DNA of 64,000 nucleotides from Thermosynechococcus sp. CL-1. Its GTDB lineage: Bacteria > Cyanobacteriota > Cyanobacteriia > Thermosynechococcales > Thermosynechococcaceae. This document shows, in pieces, positions 23,599 to 53,078 of the stretch. The notes under the pieces are model-generated. The model was given only the letters and a program-made list of their open reading frames with translations. It did no database searches and was not told the DNA's origin. The number at the start of each line of letters is the position of its first letter. Positions within the stretch are counted from its first letter, which is position 1. The stretch covers positions 2,234,001-2,298,000 of the forward strand of contig NZ_CP040671.1 in NCBI RefSeq assembly GCF_008386235.1, written 5' to 3'. Made by a program: the position numbers and the translations under genes.

Positions 23599-25314
23599 TT
23601 ACCACTGGGCGGCAATCGGCATCCGCCAACCGGAACCAAAGGCGCGATCGGTCACTTTCAACCCCGGTGCCGCCTGCTGACGTTTGAATTCTGCCCGTTG
23701 AACCATGCGGCGCACCCGCTGCACCAAGTCTAGGTCGTATCCCGCAGCGGCAATTTCCTGATCTGACTGGTGGCGATCGATCATTCGTACCAAAATGCCA
23801 TCGAGAATGTCGTAGGGCGGTAGGCTATCCTGATCCGTTTGACCGGGCTTGAGTTCGGCACTGGGGGCTTTGGTGAGAATGTGGGGGGGAATGACAACGG
23901 CACCAGCGATCGCCAGCTCGGGAATCGGATGCCCCTGAGCGGCCTGCTGATTCAACCAATGGCAGAGTTCATAGACACGGGTTTTGGGCACATCGGCAAT
24001 GGCTGCAAGGCCACCATTCATATCGCCGTAGAGGGTGCAGTAGCCCACCGCCAGTTCGGATTTATTGCCGGTGGAAATGAGCAAGTGGCCAAACTTGTTG
24101 GCGATCGCCATCAGCAGCGTACCGCGAATACGGGCTTGGATATTTTCCTCGGCAACTCCACTGGGGGTACCAGCAAATAGAGGCGCCAGCACCTCACTGT
24201 AGGTCTGCATCAGGGGCGCAATCGGTAAGATCTGCGTGGCAATGCCCAGATTTGCGGCCAAGTTCTTAGCATCGGTTATCGAGTGATCGGAACTGTAGGG
24301 AGAGGGCATCAACACCCCCAGCACCTGTTGGTTGCCCAAGGCTGCCGTCGCGATCGCCGCCACCAAGGCGGAATCAATCCCGCCACTGAGACCAATCACC
24401 ACCTGTTGAAAGCCACATTTGCGAGCATAGTCGCGCACCCCTAAAACCAAGGCTTGCCAAATTTCCTCAGGTTCGCCCGTGGCTGCAGGGGCGATCGCCG
24501 TTGGTTCGAGGTCTCCCTTTTCCCAGCGCACGGCTAGGTAGTCCTCACGAAACCCCTTGGCTTGGCTAACGATCTGCCCCTGACGATTCACCGCTAAGCT
24601 GCTGCCATCAAAAATCAAATCATCATTGCCTCCCACCTGATTGGCGTAGATTAAGGGACAGCCATATTGGCGAGCCGTATGTTCAATCAACGCCTGCCGT
24701 AACTTCGGTTTCCCCACACAGTAGGGCGATGCCGAAAGATTCACAATCAGATCTGCTCCCTGGGCCACCAATGCAGCAACCGGATTGCGCTGGTAGTGCC
24801 GCTCTCCCCAAAACTGCTCATTGTTCCAGAGGTCTTCACAGATGGTGACGCCAATTTTGAGTTGATCGCTGGCCGTCGTCAGCGTAAAGAGATTCTCCGT
24901 ACCGCCGGGGGCAAAATAGCGACATTCATCAAAGACATCGTAGGTGGGCAATAACTGCTTCGCAAAGACCTGTTGCACCTGTCCCCCCTTCAGGAGGGCT
25001 GCGCCATTGTAGAGGGGCTTTTCTCCCTTGACGCCAGCGGCGGGATTGGCTAGCACTGTGCCCACTAAAACTGCCACATCAGCCGGTAAGGCAGCGGCAA
25101 GGCGGTGCAGTTCTGCTTGAATCGCTTCAACAAAGTAGCGGTTGAGGAGCAGATCCTTGGGGGGGTAGCCACAGAGGGCGAGTTCAGAGGTGATCAGCAA
25201 ATCCAGAGGGTGCTGGCTGCGGATCTCTTGGACTGCGGTGAGAATTGCTTGGGCATTGGCCTTGAGACTGCCGACGGTGGGGTTCAGTTGCGCAATCCAC
25301 AGATGCACAGCCAT
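23599..25314 (-). CDS. nadE: Glutamine-dependent NAD+ synthetase
   Basis: 571 residues, two domains. Residues about 1-265 are a nitrilase-type glutaminase with the catalytic cysteine in V-T-I-C-E-D-L-W-N-N near 155-164. Residues about 285-571 are the synthetase, with the ATP loop S-G-G-I-D-S-A-L near 306-313 and S-T-G-N-K-S-E-L-A-V-G-Y near 418-429. It amidates deamido-NAD using glutamine and ATP, the last step of NAD synthesis. GAGGAA lies 6 bases before the ATG. It is the last gene of pncB-nadD-nrtR-nadE, 16 bases after nrtR. It ends 1 base from the convergent GT2-TPR gene. Confidence 0.96.
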   Translation of the reverse strand: MAVHLWIAQLNPTVGSLKANAQAILTAVQEIRSQHPLDLLITSELALCGYPPKDLLLNRYFVEAIQAELHRLAAALPADVAVLVGTVLANPAAGVKGEKPLYNGAALLKGGQVQQVFAKQLLPTYDVFDECRYFAPGGTENLFTLTTASDQLKIGVTICEDLWNNEQFWGERHYQRNPVAALVAQGADLIVNLSASPYCVGKPKLRQALIEHTARQYGCPLIYANQVGGNDDLIFDGSSLAVNRQGQIVSQAKGFREDYLAVRWEKGDLEPTAIAPAATGEPEEIWQALVLGVRDYARKCGFQQVVIGLSGGIDSALVAAIATAALGNQQVLGVLMPSPYSSDHSITDAKNLAANLGIATQILPIAPLMQTYSEVLAPLFAGTPSGVAEENIQARIRGTLLMAIANKFGHLLISTGNKSELAVGYCTLYGDMNGGLAAIADVPKTRVYELCHWLNQQAAQGHPIPELAIAGAVVIPPHILTKAPSAELKPGQTDQDSLPPYDILDGILVRMIDRHQSDQEIAAAGYDLDLVQRVRRMVQRAEFKRQQAAPGLKVTDRAFGSGWRMPIAAQW

Positions 25315-25330
25315 AGAAATTCCTCAAAGG

Positions 25331-26041
25331 TTAGACAAAAACTAGGGGCTTATCCTTAAGGGGCGCAAAGGCCTCGCGATCGAAGCGGTAGAGCGTTGCC
25401 GGTCGGCCCGCGCCGCGGATCACTTTTTGGTGCGTATCCTGCAAAATGCCGAGTTTCAAAAGCCGTGAGCGGAAATTGGAGTAGTCGGAGAAGTTGGCTC
25501 CCAAAACGGTGCTGTAAAACTGGTAAAGATCATTGAGGGTGAAATACTCAGGCAACACATCAAAAGCCACAGGGCTGTACTCCAGCTTATTGCAGAGGCG
25601 GCGGTGACCATAGGCCAAGATTTTGCTATGGTCAAAGGCCAGTTCTGGACAGGTACTTAGGGCAAACCACTGCACTGGAGATTCGCCCACCGCAATCAGT
25701 TCCGCATCGGCAAAGCGCACCAAGGCAAAGTAACTCACCGACAGATAGCGCTTGCCATAGGTGGTCTCGCGGGGATCCCGCGCCGGTTCGCCAAAGGTGT
25801 ACAGTTGCTCCAGATAGAGGTTACTGACGCGAATTTTTTCCGCGAGGGTGCGATAGGCAGCCGCTTCGAGGGATTCCCCCTGCCGCACGAGGGTACCGGG
25901 GAGACTCCAATACCCGGCAAAGGGCACCTGTTGTCGCTGCACCAAGAGCACAAGGAGGCGATTTTGATCCGTATCCACGGAGAAAATGACGTTGTCCACA
26001 CCGACAACAAATTCCGCAAGGGGCAAAGGGGAGGCGCTCAT
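25331..26041 (-). CDS. nrtR: NrtR: Nudix-related transcriptional regulator of NAD metabolism
   Basis: 236 residues. The N-terminal Nudix fold (about 8-150) has a degenerate Nudix box at 49-72: where active hydrolases have R-E-x-x-E-E this protein has R64-T-L-A-E-K69, so two catalytic acids are missing. That matches NrtR, which senses ADP-ribose rather than hydrolysing it. Residues about 160-230 form a winged helix (L-N-D-L-Y-Q-F-Y-S-T-V-L; F-R-S-R-L-L-K-L-G-I-L). NrtR represses NAD genes and is released from DNA by ADP-ribose in studied species. Start overlaps the nadD stop (ATGA). Candidate operators lie before pncB and nadA. Confidence 0.88.
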   Translation of the reverse strand: MSASPLPLAEFVVGVDNVIFSVDTDQNRLLVLLVQRQQVPFAGYWSLPGTLVRQGESLEAAAYRTLAEKIRVSNLYLEQLYTFGEPARDPRETTYGKRYLSVSYFALVRFADAELIAVGESPVQWFALSTCPELAFDHSKILAYGHRRLCNKLEYSPVAFDVLPEYFTLNDLYQFYSTVLGANFSDYSNFRSRLLKLGILQDTHQKVIRGAGRPATLYRFDREAFAPLKDKPLVFV

Positions 26042-26598
26042 GGCTGGGAGTAGAGTCCTTGCTGCTGAATATACTGGGCGATCGCCGGCAGAAGTTGTTG
26101 TTCATCCCGCTGTTGCCGATAGGTCGTCGAGGAGACCGCTGGCCCCCGATAGTTTGCCAGTTCCATCTGGGGACACAATTGCCGCACAGCTTGCCAATCC
26201 TTGGGGTCAATGATGACGCCGGGACGCTGCAAGACCAAGAGCTTCACCTGTTTAAGGAGCTGCGCCGCCTGATACCACTGGGGCAGCTTAGCGAGAACAT
26301 CACTGCCCACCACAAGGGTGAGGGGTTCATCGGGCCACTGTTGTTTCACCTGCTCAACGGAATGGATGGTGTAGGGGTGGCTGAGTTCGGGGTGGTGTTC
26401 GACGTTGGGGCGGTTGAGGCTGCGCACCAAGAGATTGAGCATGGCTTGGCGATAGGGCAAGGGGGTTTGCTGCCCTTTGAAGGGGTTATCGGCTGCCCAC
26501 ACTAGGACGCGGTCATAGCGATCGCTCAACCACTGGAGAATATCCCCGTGGGCGGCGGTGGGTGGATCAGCACTGGTACCAAAAAGGGCGATCGTCAT
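26038..26598 (-). CDS. nadD: Nicotinate-nucleotide adenylyltransferase
   Basis: 186 residues. G-T-S-A-D-P-P-T-A-A-H-G (about 7-18) is the nucleotidyltransferase (T/H)-x-G-H region, and the late S-S-T-T-Y-R (about 156-161) replaces the common I-S-S-T-x-I-R. It joins ATP and nicotinate mononucleotide to deamido-NAD. The start overlaps the pncB stop and the stop overlaps the nrtR start, both as ATGA, so all three are translationally coupled. Its product is the substrate of NadE, encoded two genes on. Confidence 0.92.
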   Translation of the reverse strand: MTIALFGTSADPPTAAHGDILQWLSDRYDRVLVWAADNPFKGQQTPLPYRQAMLNLLVRSLNRPNVEHHPELSHPYTIHSVEQVKQQWPDEPLTLVVGSDVLAKLPQWYQAAQLLKQVKLLVLQRPGVIIDPKDWQAVRQLCPQMELANYRGPAVSSTTYRQQRDEQQLLPAIAQYIQQQGLYSQP

Positions 26599-27908
26599 GG
26601 GCGGTGGCGTAATTGTTGAATCAGGGTGTCAAGGGCAGGGGAATAAACCACGGGCTGGGTCACATCCAAGAGGGTCTCGGGCAACTCTGCTAGGCTGGCA
26701 CGGTGGCGATCGCGAATTGTCGCCAAAGACTCCGGGGGAGAGAGGGGGCGCCCTGCCTTCATGACGGGTTCGAGGAGCGGTCTGCCCCAAACATTTTCCT
26801 CGCTGGCAAGGGCAAGGCAATCCCCACTGGGACGGCGATAAATTTGCTTGCGTCCGGGTAGGGTCATTTTGCCACTGGAGACCTTCATCACCCCCTGACC
26901 ATTGATCTCCACTAGTTTATAGACACCGTTGACGGTTTCGCCGCTGACCAGCTTGGTGCCAATGCCATAGGCATCAATGGGGGCGTTGGCTGCTTTCAAG
27001 CGCCGAACTTCGGCTTCATCGAGATCCCCACTGGCAATAATTTTTGTTTGGGGCAAGAGCTGGCGAATTTTTTGGGAGAGGCTGAGGAGATCCCCTGAAT
27101 CAATGCGCACGGCCTTGACGATAATTTCCCCGGCCGCTTGGCGATCGGCCAAAGTAGCAACGGCGGCGAGGGTGTCATAGGTGTCTACCAAGAGTGCCCC
27201 TTCCGGGTAGTAACGCAGGAAAACCGTAAAGGCATCCTGTTCTGTACCAGCGAGGGTGGCGATCGCCATCACCAGAGAATGCGCCATCGTGCCTGTGGGG
27301 GAAACCCCCAACTGCTGTGCTGCTAAGACATTCGAGGTGGCTGTAAATCCGGCGGCGAGGGCTGAGCGTGCTGCCCACAGGGACGCTTGGGGACTAAAGG
27401 CACGGCGCGTACCAAATTCCAACAGATCAATCTCTGCCCCCACCAACTGGCGCAGCCGAGAAGCGCGGGTGGCCACAAGGGTTTGGTAGTTCACGATATT
27501 GAGCAGACAAGTTTCTAGCCACTGGGCTTGCCAGAGGGGGGCTTCAATCCGCAGCAGGGGTTCTTGGGCAAACACCACTGTCCCTTCCGGAACCGCCCAG
27601 ACATCCCCACGAAACTCACTGTGGCTCAACAGGTCCCAAAATGCTGCAGGTGCCCGCTCAAAAACCGCTAGACTTTTCAAGTAATCAATTTGCTGGGGGG
27701 TGAATTGCACCTGTTGTAGGTATTCCAGTACCTGAGCCAACCCCATGGCCACCAAATAGGTGCATCCCCGGGGCAGTCGCCGCACACTGAGTTCAAAGCT
27801 GGCGGGCGTCCCAGCCAAATCCTCACCTGCGTAGGTGGCTACCATTGTCAGTTGGTAGAGATCCGTCAGCAAACTGTAATCACTGGCGGCCAAGGTGAAA
27901 CCTGTCAT
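26595..27908 (-). CDS. pncB: Nicotinate phosphoribosyltransferase
   Basis: 437 residues. L-L-T-D-L-Y-Q-L-T-M (about 14-23) is the hallmark N-terminus; E-F-G-T-R-R-A near 164-170 and R-I-D-S-G-D-L near 265-271 are active-site motifs. It converts nicotinate and PRPP to nicotinate mononucleotide, the salvage entry. It heads the four-gene NAD operon. The ATG at 27908 is only 28 bases from the near-palindrome at 27936-27956, and no clear ribosome binding site precedes it. It lies 23 bases after the menC stop on the same strand. Confidence 0.93.
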   Translation of the reverse strand: MTGFTLAASDYSLLTDLYQLTMVATYAGEDLAGTPASFELSVRRLPRGCTYLVAMGLAQVLEYLQQVQFTPQQIDYLKSLAVFERAPAAFWDLLSHSEFRGDVWAVPEGTVVFAQEPLLRIEAPLWQAQWLETCLLNIVNYQTLVATRASRLRQLVGAEIDLLEFGTRRAFSPQASLWAARSALAAGFTATSNVLAAQQLGVSPTGTMAHSLVMAIATLAGTEQDAFTVFLRYYPEGALLVDTYDTLAAVATLADRQAAGEIIVKAVRIDSGDLLSLSQKIRQLLPQTKIIASGDLDEAEVRRLKAANAPIDAYGIGTKLVSGETVNGVYKLVEINGQGVMKVSSGKMTLPGRKQIYRRPSGDCLALASEENVWGRPLLEPVMKAGRPLSPPESLATIRDRHRASLAELPETLLDVTQPVVYSPALDTLIQQLRHRP

Positions 27909-27931: not shown

Positions 27932-28921
27932 TTATTTATAGTAATTTTTACCATAATTGTCAAGGCAATCCCATATCGCTGTGTAATCCGCAAGAGTGGT
28001 CAGTAGGGGAGCCGATCGCCAGCGTTCGACGCCAAAGCCAAGGGCATGACAGGGCTGCCATGTTTCAAAGCACTGAAAAATTGCCGTGCGGGCGATCGCC
28101 CCTTCGAGGGCAGAGGAAAAGACCAGCCGCTGCGCTTCTAAACCTTGACGCAACAGGACACTCAAGCGTTCTGGAGAGCCAAAAAGCGCTGGCTTAATCA
28201 CAAAGCGTCCCGGCCAGCCGCGCTCTAACCAACGCTGCAATTCAGTGGCACTGACCACACTTTCATCGAGGGCAATTGGTGTTGTCACCCTCTGGGCTAG
28301 GGTCAATAGGGCTTGCCATTGGTCAGGGGGTAGCGGTTGCTCCACATACTCAATTTTGCCGTTCCCATGGCGATCGAGCCAAGCAAACCACCGCTCTGCA
28401 GTTGCCAAATCCCAACCCCCATTGGCATCAAGGCGTAATTTAGCCCCCTGAGGCAGTGCGGCCAGTAGCTCCCTGAGGATCCCTTGCTCCTCCTCTGGGG
28501 ACAGGACACCGACTTTCCATTTGAAGGTAGTTTGCCCCTGCTGCCAAGGCTGCTGCCACTGCTCAAGGGCGGCTCGACCACTGCCTAAAAGGGCGCAGAT
28601 TGGCCAAGGGCGTAGCCGATAGGGAAGTTGGCTCACACTTTGCCATGCCGTGGCAAAACCAAACTGGGCGGCGGGTAAGTCCTCAGGAATTGCGGCAATG
28701 ATCTCTGGGGTGAGGTGGGTGGGCAGTTGCTGACACAGGGCAATAGCGGCACTGAGGGTTTCGCTGCCCCAGCCGGGAAGGGGGGCAATTTCACCGTAGC
28801 CGACTTGACCTTGTTCATCTTCGAGGCGCAGATAAATCCCTGAGCGCGATCGCCAGATTCCCTGCGCCGTTGCCAAGGGTTCTCGAAGGAGTTCCTCGTA
28901 CACCCGCCATTGCCAGCGCAT
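27932..28921 (-). CDS. menC: o-Succinylbenzoate synthase
   Basis: 329 residues of the enolase superfamily. Catalytic residues are visible in order: K134-W-K136 (K-x-K), metal ligands D165 (L-D-A-N), E194 (Y-V-E-Q-P) and D219 (A-L-D-E), and the second-half lysine K243 (V-I-K-P). MenC dehydrates SHCHC to o-succinylbenzoate for phylloquinone, the photosystem I quinone, in cyanobacteria. It follows an unknown gene by 12 bases. Its last eight codons contain the candidate operator of the downstream NAD operon. Confidence 0.92.
   Translation of the reverse strand: MRWQWRVYEELLREPLATAQGIWRSRSGIYLRLEDEQGQVGYGEIAPLPGWGSETLSAAIALCQQLPTHLTPEIIAAIPEDLPAAQFGFATAWQSVSQLPYRLRPWPICALLGSGRAALEQWQQPWQQGQTTFKWKVGVLSPEEEQGILRELLAALPQGAKLRLDANGGWDLATAERWFAWLDRHGNGKIEYVEQPLPPDQWQALLTLAQRVTTPIALDESVVSATELQRWLERGWPGRFVIKPALFGSPERLSVLLRQGLEAQRLVFSSALEGAIARTAIFQCFETWQPCHALGFGVERWRSAPLLTTLADYTAIWDCLDNYGKNYYK
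27936..27956 (-). promoter_or_regulatory. Candidate NrtR operator and promoter of pncB-nadD-nrtR-nadE
   Basis: Imperfect palindrome with core ATAGTAATTTTTACCAT (plus strand, 27938-27954), extended to 27936 and 27956 by complementary T/A pairs. One half-site mismatch only. Read on the minus strand it contains ACTATAAA, a plausible -10 box (27940-27935), so a bound repressor would block polymerase. It lies inside the last codons of menC. An almost identical site precedes nadA at 51551-51571. Confidence 0.7.
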
Positions 28922-50549: not shown

Positions 50550-51509
50550 TTAGGACATTTGCAGCATGCGTTGGATGGGTTTGAGCGCCGCAAGGCGGAT
50601 GTCTTCTGGTAGTTCAATCTGGGGCTGGCGATCGCGCATACACCAATAGAGTTTTTCTAGGGTATTCAGGCGCATAAAGGGGCACTCATTACAATTGCAG
50701 GTCTGATCCTGAGGGGGCGCAGGGATAAAGGTTTTCTCTGGGTTGCGCCGCTGCATCTGGTGGAGAATCCCTGGCTCGGTGACAACGATAAAGGTATCGT
50801 GATCTTGGCGTTGGCTATAGTTGAGCAAAGCCGTTGTCGAACCAATAAAATCGGCATGGCGGAGTACGGCTTCTTCGCATTCGGGGTGGGCAATCACCTG
50901 GGCCGTGGGGTAGGCGGCCTTGAGTTCGAGGATGCGCCGCTCTGAAAAGGTTTCATGGACAATGCAACTGCCGTCCCACAGCACCATCTGCCGTCCGGTT
51001 TGTGCCATAACATAGCGACCAAGGTTGCGATCGGGGGCAAAAATCAGGGGCTGATCCGCAGGCAACTGCTGCACAATTTTCACTGCATTAGAACTGGTGC
51101 AAATAATGTCACTCAGGGCTTTGATTTCAGCAGTGCAGTTAATGTAGGAAATCACCCAATGATCAGGATACTGCGCCTTAAAAGCAGCAAAGGCGTCCGC
51201 AGGACAACTGTCTGCCAAAGAACAGCCCGCCGCCAAATCCGGCAGCAACACCAGCTTATCGGGGTTGAGAATCTTGGCGGTTTCGGCCATGAAATGCACC
51301 CCAGCAAAAACAATGACATCGGCATTGGTACTGGCGGCCTGCCGCGACAGCCCAAGGGAATCACCAATGTAATCGGCCACATCTTGAATGGCGGGGTCTT
51401 GGTAGTAGTGGGCTAGAATCACTGCATTCAGTTCCCGCTTCAGGTCTTGGATGGCCGCAATTAAATCCAACGGCAGGGACGGTTGAGGGGCAGCGAGAGT
51501 CGCAAACAC
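50550..51509 (-). CDS. nadA: Quinolinate synthase
   Basis: 319 residues from the GTG at 51509, with AAAGGAA about 10 bases upstream. The longer frame to 51569 would start inside the operator/promoter at 51551-51571, and its first 20 residues are unlike NadA. Three iron-sulfur cysteines fit G-C-S-L-A-D, A-H-P-E-C-E-E and C-N-E-C-P-F-M. L-A-H-Y-Y-Q-D near 33-39 is the N-terminal signature. NadA condenses iminoaspartate with dihydroxyacetone phosphate, the key de novo NAD step. Its operator-like site links it to nrtR 25 kb away. Confidence 0.95.
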
Positions 51510-51550
51510 AGGCAGTGGGTTCCTTTCGCAATTGGTAACGAGTCTCTCTA

Positions 51551-51571
51551 TTATAGTGATTTTCACCAAAA
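51551..51571 (-). promoter_or_regulatory. Candidate NrtR operator and promoter of nadA
   Basis: ATAGTGATTTTCACCA (51553-51568, plus strand) is the core; with flanks it matches the pncB site (27936-27956) at 18 of 21 positions. The differences near the half-site arms are paired so that symmetry is kept (A to G on one side, T to C on the other). On the minus strand it contains TATAAT (51555-51550), a good -10 box. Confidence 0.7.
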
Positions 51572-51581
51572 TAGGAATCCC

Positions 51582-53078
51582 TTAGGCATCATTGGCGAGC
51601 AGTTGCTGCACAAGGGCACGGGCACCATAGCTGACACCGGCCGTACCTTCCCCCGGATGCACGGAATCTCCCACTAACCACAGGTGAGGAATCGGGGTGC
51701 GGGTTGCTAAGCCAAAGGGGCCAAAGGTGCTCAGGCGTTGACTCATGCCCCCGACAATGCCATCTAGCCGCGCGGTATAGCGCCAGAAGGTGCGGGGGGT
51801 CGCCGCTTCACAGTGGACAATGTGCTCAGGCCGCAGATCAAAGAATTCCCCGAGGTGTTCAAGAGCTGTTTGGGTGTATTGCGCCTTGGTGGCGGCATAG
51901 TCTAAGTCAGGCTGACGCCAAAAATTCACTTCGGTGAAGCTCGAAGCAATCAGGGTGCGATAGCCAACAGGGGCACGGCCATCCCGCGGCTGACTGACGG
52001 AGACAAAGAGGGAGTTGTTTTCGCCAATGGGGCCTGCAGGATCGTAGAGAAATTGCAAGTGGGGCGGACAACTTTCCGGAATGGCGGCCTCTTTAACGCC
52101 AAGGTAAATCACAAAGGCACCGGAGGCTGGGGGCAGAGTTTTTAGACGGCGGGCATAGCCAGCGGGAAGGGCATCCCCTAGGAGTTGGGGTAGGTTTTGG
52201 GCAGGGACATTGGCCACAATGTGATCGGCTTCGACCCGCTGAAGGGTTTTTGTTTTTAAGTTCTCCACCTGTACAGCAACGGCACGCCCCCGCTCGACTT
52301 CAATGTAACGCACCAAATGCCGGGTGTAAATTTGACCGCCATCGCGCTGCAAGGCATTGGCGAGTAAATCACTGAGAACCTGCATACTGCCGTGGAGATG
52401 GTAGAGGCCGTGGGGGTCTTGGGACAGACAGAGGGCGGTGGCGGCATAGAGGAGTGCAGTTTCACTGGCATCCACTTGGGAGTAGAGCTTGAGTTGCAAA
52501 TCCAGAAATTGCCGCAGCCGGCGATCGCCCCCGACACCACAGAGAGTCATCCAATCGGTCACCGTCATCAGGCTAAAGGGCAACGTGAGAAGCGTCTCCG
52601 GACGCAGGGCTTGCACCAATTGCCACAGATCAAAGCCATTGCGCGGGGGCAAAATGGGCTGCCGCTGCTGAAATCGCCAACTAATGGCAAAGAGGTGTTC
52701 GAGGCCTTGCCAAAACCGCTCACTGTGGGGAAAGTGGTGTTGACGTTCCAGTTGCCAGCGATCGCGATCGCGCCAAACATTGATGGGCGTCATTTCCTGC
52801 GGCAGATACACCGCACAGGCAGGATCGCAGGGGGTTGCTGCCGGCAGAGGCATCTCCAATTCAGCAAAAATCGCCGCGTGAATCCCCCCCGGCTCAAGGC
52901 CAGCCACTTGGGTGGCGCCAACATCGAAGGTAAAACCCCGCCGCTGAAATGTGGAGGCACAGCCCCCCAGTTGGGCTGCCTGCTCAAACAGCTGAACCCG
53001 ATAGCCCCGTCGTGCCAACAATGCCGCTGTGGTCAGACCCCCAATGCCGCCGCCAATGACGACCACCTGCTTTGCCAT
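51582..53078 (-). CDS. crtD: CrtI-family carotenoid desaturase/isomerase, probably CrtD
   Basis: 498 residues. FAD motif V-V-I-G-G-G-I-G-G-L near 5-14, E-Q-A-A-Q-L-G-G-C-A-S-T-F near 32-44, and late L-W-L-V-G-D-S-V-H-P-G-E-G-T-A-G-V near 466-482, the CrtI/CrtN/CrtO superfamily pattern. It is most like cyanobacterial C-3',4'-desaturase CrtD, which acts in myxol glycoside synthesis, but CrtH- or CrtO-like activity cannot be excluded by eye. It stands alone, 11 bases from the nadA promoter, with a possible shared leader. Confidence 0.75.
   Translation of the reverse strand: MAKQVVVIGGGIGGLTTAALLARRGYRVQLFEQAAQLGGCASTFQRRGFTFDVGATQVAGLEPGGIHAAIFAELEMPLPAATPCDPACAVYLPQEMTPINVWRDRDRWQLERQHHFPHSERFWQGLEHLFAISWRFQQRQPILPPRNGFDLWQLVQALRPETLLTLPFSLMTVTDWMTLCGVGGDRRLRQFLDLQLKLYSQVDASETALLYAATALCLSQDPHGLYHLHGSMQVLSDLLANALQRDGGQIYTRHLVRYIEVERGRAVAVQVENLKTKTLQRVEADHIVANVPAQNLPQLLGDALPAGYARRLKTLPPASGAFVIYLGVKEAAIPESCPPHLQFLYDPAGPIGENNSLFVSVSQPRDGRAPVGYRTLIASSFTEVNFWRQPDLDYAATKAQYTQTALEHLGEFFDLRPEHIVHCEAATPRTFWRYTARLDGIVGGMSQRLSTFGPFGLATRTPIPHLWLVGDSVHPGEGTAGVSYGARALVQQLLANDA

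Follow-up and report, generated by a model that had tools for sequence, protein, structure and literature searches.

The window (the whole 64-kb stretch of DNA that was analyzed) contains nadA, coding for quinolinate synthase, at 50550-51509 on the minus strand (TIGR00550 and PF02445; TIGR00550 409 bits, cut-off 263). The neighboring gene crtD (51582-53078) is on the same strand, and the gap of 72 bases between them holds a predicted operator at 51551-51571 (minus strand). The site reads TTATAGTGATTTTCACCAAAA on the forward strand and TTTTGGTGAAAATCACTATAA on the nadA strand, with a GT-N7-AC core and A/T-rich arms, and the prediction is based on its match to a site at pncB and on a class-wide conservation tied to nrtR. 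Since the operator is followed by a T on the nadA strand, its right arm holds five of the six bases of TATAAT (51550-51555, minus strand), the probable -10 box of nadA; this overlap had been pointed out in the initial annotation and was confirmed. The T also follows the right arm in 101 of 105 relatives. No consensus -35 box for nadA was found on the minus strand in a promoter scan. The start of nadA is likely the GTG codon at 51509-51507, which is preceded by AAAGGA (51526-51521, minus strand), a probable ribosome-binding site. A TTG-started reading frame from 51569 is an unlikely alternative start, as its beginning would fall inside the operator.

The site at pncB, TTATAGTAATTTTTACCATAA on the forward strand at 27936-27956, reads TTATGGTAAAAATTACTATAA on the pncB strand and is also a predicted operator (minus strand). 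It overlaps the final codons of menC: the 3' end of this reading frame (27932-27956) contains the site, which encodes the last residues ...NYGKNYYK-stop; the MenC family match stops 12 residues short of the frame end. Four minus-strand genes lie beyond it. They code for nicotinate phosphoribosyltransferase (pncB, 26595-27908; NF006696, 576 bits, cut-off 503), nicotinate-nucleotide adenylyltransferase (nadD, 26038-26598; NF000842, 250 bits, cut-off 167), the regulator NrtR (nrtR, 25331-26041), and a glutamine-type NAD synthetase (nadE, open reading frame 23599-25314; TIGR00552, 243 bits, cut-off 64). There are 4-base overlaps between pncB and nadD and between nadD and nrtR, and nrtR and nadE are 16 bases apart. 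From this spacing we infer that 23599-27908 is one operon, pncB-nadD-nrtR-nadE, with nadE as its last gene. Linkage of nrtR to NAD genes is one of the features by which NrtR regulons are recognized.

The nrtR product combines an N-terminal Nudix-like domain with a C-terminal winged helix, as expected of such a regulator. It matches PF00293 (49.3 bits), PF21906 (NrtR_WHD, 67.8 bits), and PF19368 (AraR_C, 158.9 bits), all above cut-off, and falls below the cut-off of the NCBIfam equivalog NF050029 (134.5 vs 400 bits). Its best sequence matches in the PDB are Bacteroides AraR (5bs6, E 1.8e-32) and the Shewanella protein 3gz5 (E 2.4e-26). According to an excerpt of PMC4666351, the Nudix signature GX5EX7REUXEEXGU is impaired in the NrtR regulators of NAD metabolism. 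The Nudix catalytic box ...GESLEAAAYRTLAEKIRV is degenerate here too; read by eye, it differs from the signature in RE to RT, EE to EK, and G to R.

The two sites are 23,615 bp apart and identical at 18 of 21 positions, in agreement with the initial annotation. When the pncB site was used as a pattern with up to three mismatches, only the two sites themselves were found in the window, and the same search of 100 dinucleotide shuffles of the window gave no match (mean 0.00, maximum 0). The runner-up place in the window has five mismatches to the nadA site. Positions 8 and 14 differ by a symmetric swap of an A/T for a G/C pair, and the third difference, T to A at position 19, breaks one pair of the dyad. 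The swap is as the initial annotation described it. Compensating symmetric changes had also been offered as evidence in themselves, and covariation was not found across the nadA sites of 105 relatives: 30% of these sites have complementary bases at positions 8 and 14, where 29% would be expected if the two positions were independent (p = 0.35). A at position 8 is combined with C at position 14 in nine of these 105 sites, several from the window's own genus. Therefore the swap, though real, is not evidence for a dyad. At position 19, which is position 3 when read on the nadA strand, the nadA operators share an asymmetry that is conserved, with T in 99 of the 105. The evidence for the putative operator is the conservation of its arms and its link to nrtR.

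The genome to which the window belongs is a single contig of 2,647,823 bases. In this genome the relaxed class-wide core motif TTWTRGTRN6ACYAWAA, with the arms TTWTRGT and ACYAWAA, has exact matches in two places only, upstream of nadA and of pncB. A dyad operator that stands before NAD genes and is rare elsewhere is another characteristic of an NrtR regulon, and many random matches of equal score, which the initial annotation had named as a possible objection, did not appear. A pattern merged from both sites, with up to three mismatches, found the two sites and one place with three mismatches (L003, GCATAGTAATTTTCAACAAAA); the reversed control pattern found one. At up to two mismatches there were 67 strand-matches on the forward and reverse strands together, against 168 for the reversed control, which indicates that weak matches are noise. 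Sites at nadB and nadC had been expected from a genome-wide scan. Both genes were located, nadB as one place above the family cut-off with one relative below it, and nadE as well, but no site was found just upstream of nadB, the relative, nadC, or nadE (best scores 15, 15, 13, and 12 of 21), which is at noise level; in 365 shuffles of the bases of upstream stretches from genomes with nrtR, the scores had their peak at 13 and no score was above 16. Judging from the gene arrangement, nadE is under the predicted pncB operator through the operon, without a site of its own.

In total, 242 genomes of the class were searched for NrtR and NadA. The NrtR matches were bimodal: those of 194 genomes have E 5.9e-46 or better, and the other 48 genomes had no match or none better than 8.1e-14. 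The latter were taken as lacking nrtR; 37 of them had no match at E <=0.001 and 11 had weak matches, and 17 matchless genomes were taken as those missing from the NrtR match list. All 47 genomes without nrtR that have nadA (47 of 48) were scored, as were 116 of the 183 genomes that have both nrtR and a nadA match. The 116 comprised a first set of 73 (26 with top-scoring loci and 47 hand-picked across genera) and 43 less similar ones. The genome G141 was left out, as its nadA match spans only residues 134-319 and has a TGA inside. About 350 bases upstream of nadA and 60 bases inside the match were scored against a consensus of the window's two sites only.

The exact core motif was found upstream of nadA in 105 of the 116 genomes with nrtR and in 1 of the 47 without it (Fisher p = 9e-29, uncorrected for kinship). 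Counted by family, according to the majority of members, it was present in 25 of 28 families with nrtR and 1 of 12 without (p = 2e-6); both tests do without a tree and thus allow for kinship only roughly. Such co-occurrence of operator and regulator across species is a further hallmark of an NrtR regulon. A score of at least 15 of 21 was reached at nadA in 110/116 and 9/47 genomes, respectively, and a score of at least 17 in 101/116 and 1/47. The contrast was also seen within families: in f1 the nadA site was present in 0/2 genomes without nrtR (one genus) and 17/17 with it, and in f24 in 0/2 (one genus) and 20/21. Among the best 80 named nadA loci listed, 34 have cyanobacterial names; the exact core motif is present in 29 of these 34, and the other 46 loci score 16 or less; the named carriers include Nostoc, Arthrospira, Planktothrix, Aphanizomenon, Pseudanabaena, and Gloeomargarita. 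Genome-wide, an exact TTWTRGTRN6ACYATAA was found in all 35 genomes with nrtR chosen for having a nadA site, in 5 of 9 chosen as exceptions, and in 3 of the 48 genomes without nrtR. By coordinates or tblastn, 25 of the 35 have an exact site near pncB or nrtR in addition to that at nadA, and the other 10 have none there; the pncB-nadD-nrtR stretches of G065, G190, and G012 (L297, L298, L299) were checked and contain no exact site.

Eleven of the 116 genomes with nrtR lack the exact motif at nadA. Five of them (G226, G162, G217, G074, G111) have near matches with scores of 17-19, and six (G164, G238, G004, G029, G068, G003) have no site there (scores 12-14). G164 and G238 encode a diverged NrtR-like protein (E about 1e-46), and no exact site was found anywhere in their genomes. 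The NrtR of G004, G029, and G068 is typical and their NadA only about 46% identical, so that NadA has perhaps been replaced by a foreign gene; these three, G003, and G111 have exact sites at pncB. G122 has a nadA site and no detected nrtR. Its draft is in about 380 contigs, though rated 100% complete, and its genus mate G190 has nrtR, which makes it likely that a contig is missing. G157 and G234 each have a single exact match, which does not lie at nadA.

Seven exact third sites, neither at nadA nor near pncB or nrtR according to coordinates and tblastn, were found in the 35 genomes with nrtR. Most of them are probably due to chance, since the reversed control pattern gave 25 matches in all across the 45 genomes, and only the gene next to the site of G149 looked NAD-related. 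In G150, from another family of the class, a sequence identical in every letter to the pncB operator of the window (L282:1995-2015) lies upstream of a DUF3854/D5_N gene, which is primase-like and possibly belongs to a mobile element. Paired operators with starts 22-26 bases apart occur at nadA in G065 (C1:3514514-3514556) and G138 (C33:81739-81785), and beside a gene other than nadA in G068 (C1:21631-21676, L387).

Taken together, these results indicate that the nadA site is very probably a functional operator of the window's own NrtR, shared with the pncB operon and acting as described below. Chance likeness of two A/T-rich stretches might be suspected from the 67 genome matches at two mismatches, a number well exceeded by the reversed control; it is vanishingly improbable, given the empty shuffles, and is ruled out by the conservation upstream of nadA in 105 of the 116 sampled genomes with nrtR. 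The conserved block could also be the nadA promoter only, that is, an extended -10 box with an upstream element, in which case its likeness to pncB would be shared promoter sequence. This would fit the right arm ACTATAA(T), which contains the -10 box together with the T that follows it. However, in some lineages that lack nrtR a -10-like box is retained and the arms are not. On the nadA strand, the promoters L060 (CTTTGGTAATTTCCACTACAAT) and L066 (GTTTGTTAAAATTAACTACAAT) of such genomes retain TACAAT with arms that are partly decayed, and G232, G165, and G069, also without nrtR, have TACAAT or TAGAAT at nadA and no left arm, the intact form of which is TTTTGGT. This argues for an operator in addition to the promoter, and since G122 is the one genome among the 47 without nrtR that has the exact core motif, we regard a promoter alone as improbable.

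Co-occurrence cannot name the protein that binds, and a different regulator co-inherited with nrtR could be the one at the site. The winged helix of NrtR itself fits AraR_C better than NrtR_WHD, so the ligand sensed could differ. On the other hand, the only other exact site in the genome precedes the very operon that holds nrtR. Genomes lacking nrtR occur in 12 families, and in 11 of these families none of those genomes has the nadA site (in f5, one of the 11, members with nrtR also lack it). A different regulator is improbable as well, slightly more so than a promoter alone. For NrtR as the regulator, the initial proposal that nadA belongs to the regulon of the pncB operon is strongly supported by the co-occurrence and by the two exact places in the genome; the part of that proposal which did not hold concerns the sites at nadB and nadC and the compensating changes.

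The two sites, the gene set, the rarity of the motif in the genome, and its co-occurrence with nrtR were observed directly, whereas binding, repression, and the ADP-ribose signal are proposed as follows, by analogy with the NrtR proteins of Synechocystis, Shewanella, and Mycobacterium smegmatis. An NrtR dimer would bind the 21-bp dyad, which overlaps the -10 region of nadA, and block RNA polymerase. It would block the promoter of pncB-nadD-nrtR-nadE likewise, so that nrtR would be autoregulated. Breakdown of NAD would yield ADP-ribose, which would release NrtR from its operators; nadA (quinolinate), pncB (nicotinate salvage), and nadD and nadE (shared last steps) would then rise together. Joint control of de novo and salvage NAD synthesis is the best reading of these sequences. 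An excerpt of PMC4666351 names the NrtR protein of Synechocystis as ADP-ribose-responsive and reports that this ligand suppresses the binding of DNA by it and by the NrtR of Shewanella.

NrtR is already known to control NAD genes. As in the NrtR regulon of NAD metabolism, the present genome has a Nudix and winged-helix regulator, nrtR inside an NAD operon, and dyad operators before NAD genes, and no defining difference was found. The founding paper on this regulon, that of Rodionov and colleagues in 2008, reportedly treats cyanobacteria and may already list nadA. In Mycobacterium smegmatis, according to an excerpt of PMC6800001, the de novo pathway genes nadABC are repressed by NrtR, and nadA is under its control as proposed here. 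There, however, nadABC form one operon beside nrtR and the operator is GTTTTCGA-N7-TCGAAAAC, whereas here nadA is 23 kb away, nadB and nadC are found at other places and have no sites, and the operator has the arms TTWTRGT and ACYAWAA. Bacteroides AraR, the closest PDB sequence, controls arabinose genes according to the excerpt of PMC4666351, in contrast to the two exact sites at NAD genes in the present genome.

An unassigned nicotinamidase-like protein family was present in 26 of 33 genomes with nrtR, including the window's own (C1:166055-167053 of G000, L361), and in none of 7 without it; other members are at L283:2102-3169, L386:354-1463, and L392:339-1445. In G149, the gene of a 356-residue member has an exact operator at -73. 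In G004, G029, and G068 the gene and pncB diverge, and the region between them holds two operators, one adjoining each gene, at a spacing of about 150 bases. The exact motif was found upstream of the gene in 1 of 26 genomes scored, and in none of the other 25, the window's own included; the three f5 genomes with an operator there came from the nine exceptions, outside the 26. In an alignment of 27 members, from which the partial or broken homologs L362, L363, and L365 and duplicate loci were left out, D58, D101, H103, H110, and C267 are invariant in all 27. This conforms to a pattern of Asp, Cys, and D-x-H...H, which we take to be residues for catalysis and metal binding. The isochorismatase-type family PF00857 gave weak matches in 16 of the 27 at E <=1 (best 8e-4; 14.1 bits for the window's own member, cut-off 27), and no Pfam match above cut-off was found for the own-genome and G149 members; a search of NCBIfam and the PDB with one member gave no match at E <=1. 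A profile of the family found only two PDB chains at E <=10, both of them nicotinamidases, at insignificant E 0.52 and 1.3. The gene contains an in-frame TGA in two genomes of one genus (G092:C1:1365840-1366820 and G044:C1:1775711-1776373), where it is possibly decaying. A nicotinamidase role feeding PncB is plausible. We tentatively suggest, as a possibility somewhat short of even, that the cyanobacterial NrtR regulon reaches this family of about 340 residues, which may be the first salvage enzyme, converting nicotinamide to nicotinate for PncB.

The genomes without nrtR serve as a natural control, as they almost never carry the site. In many cyanobacteria a single repressor thus probably couples de novo NAD synthesis with salvage by way of two promoters, and the nicotinamidase-like family may supply the nicotinamide step in the salvage pathway of cyanobacteria.
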